Source: Dehalococcoidia bacterium (GTDB lineage Bacteria; Chloroflexota; Dehalococcoidia; Dehalococcoidales; W498). Taken from it: a stretch of DNA of 64,000 bases. Within the stretch, counting starts at the first letter, position 1, and every line of letters begins with the position of its first letter. A program made the translations under genes and the position numbers. The notes under the pieces were generated by a model. It made no database searches. It worked only from the letters and a program-made list of their open reading frames with translations, and was not told where the DNA came from. The stretch covers positions 124,001-188,000 of the forward strand of contig DUEE01000016.1 in NCBI GenBank assembly GCA_011170285.1, written 5' to 3'. This document shows, piece by piece, positions 35,903 through 62,834 of the stretch.

Positions 35903-35932
35903 TTGTTATCACGGCAACCATAGTGATATAAT
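35903..35932 (+). promoter_or_regulatory. promoter of hisA-hisI
   Basis: TTGTTA (35903-35908), 18 bp, TATAAT (35927-35932), with a TG before the -10. Transcription should begin near 35939, so no start codon further upstream than about 35940 can be used for hisA. Confidence 0.65.
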
Positions 35933-35966
35933 ACATTTGTCATAAATAGAGAGGGGTAAGGCTAAA

Positions 35967-36680
35967 ATAGAATTAATTCCTGCCGTAGACCTTAGACAGG
36001 GTAAATGCGTTCGTCTGTATCAAGGTGACTATAATGTGGAAACGGTATTCTCTGGTAACCCGGTAGAGGTAGCCCTACAGTGGCAATCGCTGGGAGCACC
36101 ACGACTCCACATTGTTGACCTTGATGGGGCGGCTGCGGGTGAGCTCTATAACCTGGACATTATTAAAGAGATAGCTAGTACCGTATTAGTTCCTATTCAA
36201 CTGGGTGGTGGTATCCGCCAACTGGAAACAGTAGTGCAATTGCTTAAATCAGGTATAGAGCGTGTCATCCTGGGCACAGCCGCTGTGGAAGACCCCGGGC
36301 TGATTGAGGAGGCATGCCATAAATTCAGCGAGTCTATTATTGTTAGTATTGATGCCAGGGAGGGAAATATTGCTATCCACGGCTGGCGACAGAGCACAGA
36401 GTTAAAGGCTACAGAATTTACCAAGTCTATGATCAAGCTAGGGGTAAAGCGTTTCATCTACACCGATATTGGTCGCGACGGCACCCTCACTGAGCCAAAT
36501 TTTGCAGCCATCGCTGACCTAGTTAATACCATCAGATTACCTATCATTGCCGCCGGTGGTATTTCCTCGCTGAATCACCTTAATAAGCTCAAACAACTCG
36601 GTGTAGAGGCTTCCATAGTAGGCAAGGCGCTTTATACTGGAGACATCAACCTGAAACAAGCCCTAGCCACTATCTGCTAA
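35967..36680 (+). CDS. hisA: phosphoribosylformimino-5-aminoimidazole carboxamide ribotide isomerase, AUA start
   Basis: This (beta/alpha)8 barrel of 237 residues catalyses the fourth step of histidine synthesis. Strand 1 IPAVDLRQGKCVRLYQGDY carries the catalytic aspartate, and TDIGRDGTL carries the second; LGGGIR and IAAGGISS bind phosphate. The protein must begin near ELIPAVDL, but the frame has no ATG, GTG or TTG there: after an in-frame stop at 35943 the only plausible initiator is ATA at 35967, behind GAGGGGTAAGG. The next standard codon (GTG 36036) would remove strand 1 and the catalytic aspartate. hisI follows 37 bases later. Confidence 0.92.
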   Translation: MELIPAVDLRQGKCVRLYQGDYNVETVFSGNPVEVALQWQSLGAPRLHIVDLDGAAAGELYNLDIIKEIASTVLVPIQLGGGIRQLETVVQLLKSGIERVILGTAAVEDPGLIEEACHKFSESIIVSIDAREGNIAIHGWRQSTELKATEFTKSMIKLGVKRFIYTDIGRDGTLTEPNFAAIADLVNTIRLPIIAAGGISSLNHLNKLKQLGVEASIVGKALYTGDINLKQALATIC

Positions 36681-38325: not shown

Positions 38326-38580
38326 TTAGCTAGCGTAAACGCTAACCTTCCTCCTGTTGTTGCTGGTAGGTTCAAATTTAACCACACCATCAATTAAGGC
38401 ATAAAGGGTATAATCTCTGCCCACACCCACATTGTTGCCCGGATGAATGCGTGTGCCACGTTGGCGAATCAATATAGTCCCAGCATTTACCTTCTGCCCG
38501 GCGTATCTCTTGACACCAAGCCGCTTGGATTGACTATCCCGACCTAAGCGGGTGCTGCCGCCTCCCTTCTTATGTGCCAC
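38326..38580 (-). CDS. rpmA: 50S ribosomal protein L27
   Basis: This 84-residue protein starts [20 protein letters not shown] (from a GTG), with no N-terminal cleavable extension of the Firmicutes type. [13 protein letters not shown] and [17 protein letters not shown] are diagnostic. It overlaps the end of rplU by 11 bases, in the conserved L21-L27 order. Confidence 0.96.
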
Positions 38581-38926
38581 TTTGAATCACCTCTTTTTGT
38601 GCTGATGAGCCTTCCGCCTCCAATATCTTGTCAATAGTTAACCTGGTATAAAGTTGGCGGTGCCCTGTCTTCTTACGGTAACGCACCTTGGGCTTATACT
38701 TAAAAACGATAATCTTCTTCCCTTTCCCCTCTCCCTGCGAGGTGGCAATTACCTTTGCCCCATCAATAATGGGCGTGCCTATGGTTAACTTGTCATCATC
38801 AGCAATAAGTAATACCCTGCCTAGCTCAATTGTATTGCCCTCGGCTATATCGAGTCGCTCTACATCTATAGTCTGACCCGGGCTTACCTTATATTGCTTA
38901 CCACCGGTTTCAATAATAGCGTAAAT
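38570..38926 (-). CDS. rplU: 50S ribosomal protein L21, AUU start
   Basis: This encodes 118 residues. The body [37 protein letters not shown] and YTRLTIDKI is standard L21, which almost always begins M-Y-A-I. Here the codon before YAI is ATT (38926-38924), eight bases after a perfect GGAGGAGG. The only standard codon upstream, TTG 38944, lies at the left edge of that ribosome site, so the site would be translated. AUU initiation is therefore the best reading. The C-terminal tail is about 15 residues longer than in typical L21. Confidence 0.93.
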
Positions 38927-38970
38927 TTTTCTATCCTCCTCCAAACAGCGTATTCTACCAACTGCTATAG

Positions 38971-39570
38971 CTAGGTGTCAAGCGCTAGTGCCTGCCATAG
39001 CTTATCTACCTTTGACTTTAGCTCATTAAGGTCACCATCATTATTTATTACCACATCGGCGTGCTTTTCTCGTTCCGCTGAAGATAGCTGGGAGCGGATG
39101 CGAGCCAAAGATTGCTGCTCAGACAACCCACTATATTCCTTAAGTCGCCTTAATACCGTGGACTGAGGGGCTATAGTAACCCAAACTTCGTCAACTAATG
39201 CAGCCCAGTCAACTTCCATCAGCAAGGGAGCTTCAAGGATTACCACATCCACCCCTTGCCGCCGGTATTCCTCAAGCTGGGTCTTTACCATATCATACAT
39301 TCGGGGGTGCATTATCTGGTTCAACCGTGATAAAGACTCAGAATTGCCAAAAACTATCTCACCCAGCTTCTTACGGTCAATATCACCACTCGGGGTAAGG
39401 ATCTGCCTGCCAAAAGAAGCTACTACCTCCCGCCACACCTCGGTATCAGGCTTATAAGCTTCATGCCCCACTTTATCAGCATCTATGATGACCGCACCCA
39501 GCTCATCTAGAAACCGGGATACCGTGCTCTTGCCACTACCTATACCACCAGTAAGCCCTATGATCTTCAT
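38971..39570 (-). CDS. coaE: dephospho-CoA kinase
   Basis: This 199-residue P-loop kinase carries out the last step of coenzyme A synthesis. IGLTGGIGSGKSTVSRFL contains Walker A; IDADKVGHEAY, then EAPLLMEVDWAALVDEVWV, and the lid R..RIRSQL are typical. It is the first gene of the minus-strand coaE-rplU-rpmA-rpmE group, 44 bases ahead of rplU. Confidence 0.95.
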   Translation of the reverse strand: MKIIGLTGGIGSGKSTVSRFLDELGAVIIDADKVGHEAYKPDTEVWREVVASFGRQILTPSGDIDRKKLGEIVFGNSESLSRLNQIMHPRMYDMVKTQLEEYRRQGVDVVILEAPLLMEVDWAALVDEVWVTIAPQSTVLRRLKEYSGLSEQQSLARIRSQLSSAEREKHADVVINNDGDLNELKSKVDKLWQALALDT

Positions 39571-46154: not shown

Positions 46155-46229
46155 CGCGGGGTGGAGCAGTGGAAGCTCGTTGGGCTCATAACCCAAAGGT
46201 CGTTGGTTCGAATCCAACCCCCGCTACCA
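46155..46229 (+). tRNA. initiator tRNA-fMet (CAT), CCA encoded
   Basis: The acceptor arms CGCGGGG and CCCCGCT pair at six positions with a C1-T72 mismatch, the initiator hallmark. The anticodon stem has three G-C pairs (GGG/CCC) around loop CTCATAA (anticodon CAT), also an initiator mark. T-loop TTCGAAT, discriminator A and CCA are present. Confidence 0.93.
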
Positions 46230-62271: not shown

Positions 62272-62285
62272 AGGGGGTGAGGTAG

Positions 62286-62834
62286 ATAAACATTACGTCA
62301 CCAATTGAGGCTGAAATAATAGATAAACTAAAGGTAGGCACCAGGGTTTTTATTTCTGGGGTTATCTATACCGCTCGTGATGCCGCTCACTGTAGGCTTA
62401 TTCAAGCCCTGGATAAGGGTGATAAGTTACCCTTTGGCCTTAACCGACAAACATTGTATTATATGGGACCATCCCCTGCGAAACCGGGGCAGATTATTGG
62501 CTCAGCCGGTCCCACTACCAGTAGTCGTATGGACATATACACCCCGCGCCTTATTGCTGCCGGGCTCAGAGCTATGATTGGTAAAGGCAACCGCTCACCA
62601 GCAGTAAAAGAAGCTATAAAGAAGTATAAGGCTGTTTATTTCGCCACCATAGGTGGCGCCGGCGCTTTACTAGCTCAATCTATTAAAGGTGTAGAGGTTA
62701 TAGCCTATGAAGATTTAGGCACCGAGGCTATCTTGCGGCTTAATGTTGATAACTTCCCAGCTATTGTCGCCAATGATATTTATGGGGAAGACCTGTTTGA
62801 CCAGGGTAAAGCCAGATACCAAAGGAGGAAATAA
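62286..62834 (+). CDS. fumB: class I fumarate hydratase, beta subunit, AUA (or AUU) start
   Basis: This encodes about 182 residues. The N-terminal part ITSPIEAEIIDKLKVGTRVF and ISGVIYTARDAAHCRL is needed for the fold and matches the family, and GPTTSSRMDIYTP and FATIGGAGALLAQSI follow. No ATG, GTG or TTG exists in frame between the stop TAG (62283) and TTG 62454, which would delete 56 conserved residues. An AAGGGGGTGA site at 62271-62280 places ATA 62286 at ideal spacing; ATT 62292 is the alternative. It ends the TCA cluster; the HIT gene follows three bases later. Confidence 0.92.
   Translation: MNITSPIEAEIIDKLKVGTRVFISGVIYTARDAAHCRLIQALDKGDKLPFGLNRQTLYYMGPSPAKPGQIIGSAGPTTSSRMDIYTPRLIAAGLRAMIGKGNRSPAVKEAIKKYKAVYFATIGGAGALLAQSIKGVEVIAYEDLGTEAILRLNVDNFPAIVANDIYGEDLFDQGKARYQRRK

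Follow-up and report, generated by a model that had tools for sequence, protein, structure and literature searches.

The window analysed here, a stretch of 64,000 nucleotides covering positions 124001–188000 of contig 8 in a draft metagenome assembly of 1.38 Mb and 27 contigs, holds three genes whose frames appear to open at an AUH codon (AUA, AUU or AUC). On the plus strand, the hisA frame (35967..36680) is closed upstream by an in-frame TAA at 35943..35945, followed by the purine-rich, Shine-Dalgarno-like stretch GAGGGGTAAGG (35951..35961), the putative AUA start at 35967–35969 and GAA-TTA-ATT-CCT-GCC-GTA-GAC. The resulting N-terminus (IELIPAVDL) is the canonical M-x-I-I-P-A-I-D with an isoleucine codon replacing methionine, and the first standard start, GTG 36036, lies 23 codons inside the protein. 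A promoter predicted by consensus match only (35903..35932, plus strand) combines a -35 element TTGTTA (35903–35908) with an extended -10 TGaTATAAT (hexamer 35927–35932), giving 10 of 12 consensus matches; from its position, the transcript 5' end would lie only ~28 nt ahead of the ATA. The first-pass annotation had likewise read hisA as starting at AUA behind a promoter with its -10 at 35927, and both the closed frame and the predicted hexamer agree with it.

The rplU gene (38570..38926, minus strand) carries ATT at 38926–38924, the canonical Met position of MYAIIETGG, behind the Shine-Dalgarno sequence GGAGGAGG (38935..38942, minus strand). Its predicted promoter (TTGACA-N18-TAGAAT, 38952..38981, minus strand) has a -10 whose position is conserved in relatives, ending a median of 27 nt before the AUU; at least 5/6 matches were found in 106 of 119 leaders, compared with 25 of 119 shuffled ones. 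This conserved position points to a leader of ~20 nt, which would leave hardly any space for an upstream start. The AUU start proposed earlier holds, in that the codon sits in the canonical Met column and is conserved, but an in-frame TTG at 38944–38942, directly ahead of the Shine-Dalgarno sequence and at the predicted transcript 5' end, had been overlooked. We considered TAC at codon 2 as a signature, given that TAT would make an out-of-frame AUG, and discarded it because TAC is also dominant in AUG/GUG lineages.

The fumB frame (62286..62834, plus strand) opens right after a TAG at 62283–62285 with either ATA 62286 or ATT 62292, behind the Shine-Dalgarno-like GGGGGTGAGG (62273..62282, plus strand), and its next standard start is a TTG 56 codons on. 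Each of the three genes thus has the purine-rich ribosome site that had been ascribed to it. The AUA/AUU start claimed for fumB appears real but, unlike those of hisA and rplU, it is not conserved: a genome of the same genus (G001) has ATG, and the comparison indicates that the AUH codon is a recent change. The motif GGGGGTGAGGTRA followed directly by AUA/AUC recurs at this fumB (window 62274–62288), a hydrogenase-like gene (L420:7810–7827), the fumB of G050 (L068) and the purD of G018 (L272). Read in frame it gives GTG-AGG-stop-AUH, possibly a two-codon mini-ORF before the start or merely a strong Shine-Dalgarno sequence.

Start codons of hisA and rplU among relatives

We compared these start columns with those of Dehalococcoidales/Dehalococcoidia metagenome assemblies. 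Among 76 distinct Dehalococcoidia hisA sequences, AUH occupies the column in 42 (AUA 33, AUC 9), with AUG in 27, ACG in 4 and other codons in 3 that are, at least partly, alignment offsets. In an initial set of 29 homologues from the order, the codon is mostly ATA or ATC, with ATG in two. Conservation of the AUH codon is order-wide, with reversion to AUG in many lineages, and this AUG at the same column bears out the earlier view that the ATA lies where an AUG is expected. A stop closes 31 of the 42 AUH frames upstream without an intervening ATG, GTG or TTG. Because near-cognate codons recur at one column across the 76 sequences, the comparison rules out a sequencing error as the source of the hisA ATA. 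The ACG codons lie at L020, L028, L116 and L176, and in L028 a TGA lies three codons before the ACG, so that no standard start remains.

For rplU, 110 of 126 distinct Dehalococcoidia sequences have AUH (103 AUU, 5 AUC, 2 AUA), 4 have AUG and 12 have other codons, most of these with an N-terminal extension. In the remaining orders of the class, 33 of 45 sequences have AUH (L224 was left out as a member of the order itself), as against none of 29 genomes from other Chloroflexota classes, where 12 have AUG, 9 GUG and 1 UUG and the rest are extended. A pattern scan matched every sampled genome of family f9, which belongs to the same order and comprises near-complete, mostly single-contig genomes, and also some further families of the class; it gave no match in the sampled genomes of other classes. 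The frame is closed without a standard start in 68 of the 110 AUH cases. G001 (93% complete) yielded neither rplU nor hisA, and as the two genes are neighbors, a missing assembly segment is the likely cause.

Neither reads with ATG at these positions nor relatives using another standard codon in the same frame came to light for hisA or rplU. This comparative evidence supports the AUH codons of the two genes as genuine starts, and the recurrence of this codon class at one column in dozens of species upholds the proposal of the first-pass annotation that the lineage tolerates AUH initiation. Its grouping of the three genes as cases of one kind holds only in part: all are AUH, but the rplU codon is class-wide, that of hisA order-wide and that of fumB recent.

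Near-cognate starts in other genes and control genes

The infC gene, whose inspection had been suggested earlier, starts at AUA; among 27 relatives the codon is AUA in 26 and AUC in one, and 16 of the 27 AUH frames are closed without a standard start. The adjoining rplT (L001:1235, minus strand) has TTG, another weak start, in the inspected rows (own and close relatives). In G018, infC appears to be absent, probably through an assembly gap. The purM gene has AUU in this genome and AUU/AUC in 20 of 30 relatives, with 15 of 19 AUH frames closed in the same way. The purD column in 30 genomes of the order reads CUG in 17, UUG in 4, AUA in 3 and AUG in 3, with AUU, AUC and GUG besides; all these codons are at most one base from AUG, though the residues that they would encode differ. 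The purD CTG was seen at L411:4558 (minus strand) and in relatives L451–L480. Conserved CUG starts are, to our knowledge, very rare among bacteria. AUH, the codon class named originally, recurs in several genes but is too narrow, given CUG in 17 of 30 purD genes and ACG in a few hisA genes.

A rough manual count over 761 kb of the genome (~55%, 576 gene models), incomplete and not benchmarked, gave ~12 near-cognate starts (~2%). AUH starts were assigned to infC, hisA, rplU, fumB, purM, a lipoprotein gene, a hydrogenase-like gene, a HIT-family gene, ruvX and pilT, and CUG starts to purD and possibly mtnA; gene names outside the window were assigned from N-terminal sequences. For the mtnA-like gene (L414:18834), a CTG behind AAGGAG is the only start that is plausible close to the conserved N-terminus. 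Clear cases in G018 (800 kb, ~700 gene models) are hisA AUC, rplU AUU, purD AUC and a rubrerythrin-like gene with AUC, the last of which has ATG in our genome; the HIT-family gene, conversely, has ATA here and ATG in G018. Sporadic cases such as fumB and the HIT-family gene look more like drift than regulation. Counts of codons behind Shine-Dalgarno motifs across whole upstream regions were too noisy to use (AUU ~1.6-fold), and a pairwise start-column heuristic against G018, which returned mainly internal false positives, served for manual review only.

Control genes gave a different picture. At 160 loci of rpmA, directly downstream of rplU, we found 104 AUG, 54 GUG, 2 UUG and no AUH, and at 49 loci of coaE, beside rplU, 45 AUG and no AUH; hisI and rplT, whose loci were out of register at the start, were left out of this comparison. 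When 65 orthologue pairs with G001 were compared, both members had a standard start in one column in 56, and only fumB stood out as a clear AUH case among the remainder. There is no general collapse of start selection in the lineage.

Shine-Dalgarno pairing, initiator tRNA and IF3

The near-cognate starts of this set have strong Shine-Dalgarno sequences at workable spacing. Median pairing energies at AUH and standard starts, respectively, are -10.9 and -6.4 kcal/mol for rplU, -9.8 and -7.1 kcal/mol for hisA and -10.7 and -7.45 kcal/mol for purM (one-sided p for stronger pairing at AUH of 5e-4, 1.4e-3 and 1.1e-3, relatedness ignored). Strong motifs precede 101 of 110 AUH starts and 1 of 4 standard starts in rplU, 32 of 42 and 8 of 27 in hisA and 18 of 19 and 0 of 4 in purM, the standard-start groups being small (4, 27 and 4 for rplU, hisA and purM).

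A single initiator-type tRNA was found in the genome, which is 88% complete. It lies in the window (46155..46229, plus strand) and is an initiator tRNA-Met with the ordinary CAU anticodon, whose anticodon stem has three G:C pairs. We also aligned 30 IF3 sequences (E. coli numbering), which are well conserved, and considered the residues that we take to be central to discrimination, Y75, R99, K110, R112, R131, R147 and R116. R99, K110, R112, R131 and R133 are invariant, as is Y75; position 147 is R in 27 of 30, and position 116 is K in 27 of 30. The alignment neither proves nor excludes altered proofreading. Position 168 (L302–L331), an Arg in both E. coli and Thermus IF3, varies in the order: of the 30 sequences, 11 have R and 10 have K, and the others have A, N or H. 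This position may bear on start-codon discrimination.

Competing explanations and biological meaning

IF3 destabilizes initiation complexes on near-cognate codons, and the starts of this set belong to the codon class that IF3 disfavors according to the literature (AUA, AUU, AUC, CUG). We consider it fairly probable that hisA truly starts at AUA 35967 and that the whole set is kept by weak, IF3-dependent translation with Shine-Dalgarno compensation. The initiator tRNA, with its ordinary CAU anticodon, would read this AUA, which would belong to a small Dehalococcoidia set one base from AUG (infC AUA, rplU AUU, purM AUU, hisA AUA/AUC, purD CUG and sporadic others). A strong Shine-Dalgarno sequence would hold the 30S subunit in place and offset the weak codon, and since IF3 destabilizes complexes on such codons, the starts would keep translation low and IF3-dependent, as for infC; the weak output, the IF3 sensitivity and the selection are what we infer. 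The near-fixed AUH codons of rplU and infC lie one mutation from AUG, and their retention in particular genes suggests that weak, probably IF3-sensitive, translation is selected for. That the lineage also tolerates near-cognate starts is indicated by sporadic cases such as fumB.

If IF3, 16S rRNA or other factors simply discriminated less, near-cognate codons would be nearly neutral and would drift among many genes. Such a relaxation of proofreading could account for the sporadic AUH codons in ~2% of gene models, the exchange of AUH and AUG between relatives and, in IF3, R116K and the variable position 168. General laxity would not, however, be expected to leave AUH near fixation in rplU and infC and absent from rpmA and coaE, to fix codon identity gene by gene or to need a strong Shine-Dalgarno sequence, and we regard it as unlikely. 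The relaxed IF3 proofreading suggested by the first-pass annotation is, as worded there, not supported: most of the key residues considered are kept, rpmA and coaE never have AUH, and AUH is confined to particular genes.

The remaining explanations have far less in their favor. A standard start elsewhere, either upstream or further on so that the product is truncated, might be sought in the in-frame upstream ATG, GTG or TTG of some relatives (42 of 110 rplU and 11 of 42 hisA frames are not cleanly closed) or in the TTG 38944 of our own rplU. It is made very improbable by the stops that close most frames, the short and conserved rplU leader, the AUG at exactly the same column in relatives and the number of conserved codons that the next standard start would cut (median 21 in rplU, 36 in hisA). 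We give equally little credence to a special or modified initiator tRNA that treats AUA/AUU as cognate. A modification would be invisible in DNA, but no supporting sign was found in the 88% complete genome, where the one initiator-type tRNA has CAU, and one altered anticodon would not yield both CUG and ACG starts. Sequencing or assembly error, or gene decay, is the least credible of all. The window does come from a draft metagenome assembly, but the same codons occur in dozens of families whose genomes were assembled independently, some of them into a single contig, and the reading frames are intact and conserved; this explanation is refuted for hisA and rplU and stands only for single-genome cases such as fumB.

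Most bacteria avoid AUA, AUU and CUG starts, and near-cognate starts have been treated as rare curiosities. In E. coli, infC starts at AUU and is under IF3 autocontrol. The starts described here resemble it in lying one base from AUG within the class that IF3 discriminates against, and as infC has AUA here, the same loop would be expected; the E. coli set is, however, very small, whereas here it extends to rplU, hisA, purM and purD, with conservation of their starts. In Streptomyces, sigR has a GTC start that is repressed by IF3 and preceded by a strong ribosome binding site, AGGAGGTG (PMC5472188). This is likewise a conserved non-canonical start with a strong site outside infC, but GUC differs from AUG at two bases and concerns a single regulator gene, and IF3 repression was shown by experiment there (PMC5472188) and is proposed here on comparative grounds. 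In Staphylococcus aureus, infC, ccpN (AUA) and cvfC1 (AUU) combine conserved AUH starts with extended Shine-Dalgarno sequences and lower output in vivo (PMC13009471). The likeness is close, but the genes and the phylum are different, and those starts were mapped by ribosome profiling whereas ours are comparative (PMC13009471). Near-cognate starts as a kind are therefore known; a class-wide set with a conserved CUG and a ribosomal-protein gene among its members was not found in the open-access literature searched and appears new, and that search returned nothing relevant on start codons in Dehalococcoides/Chloroflexi.

The Dehalococcoidia are slow-growing anaerobic bacteria. Start prediction relies on ATG, GTG and TTG, a limitation stressed previously (PMC5472188), and hisA, rplU, purM and purD are therefore at risk of truncated or missed annotation throughout this environmentally important class. 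If, as we infer, the single-contig genomes represent Dehalococcoides and Dehalogenimonas, cultured relatives carry the same starts. A ribosomal-protein gene kept at AUU across the class would imply selection for weak or regulated initiation. More tentatively, infC, rplU, purD, purM and hisA may form a gene set governed by IF3 through their shared near-cognate starts, in which case free IF3 would couple the state of the ribosome pool to the supply of L21 and to nucleotide and histidine synthesis.
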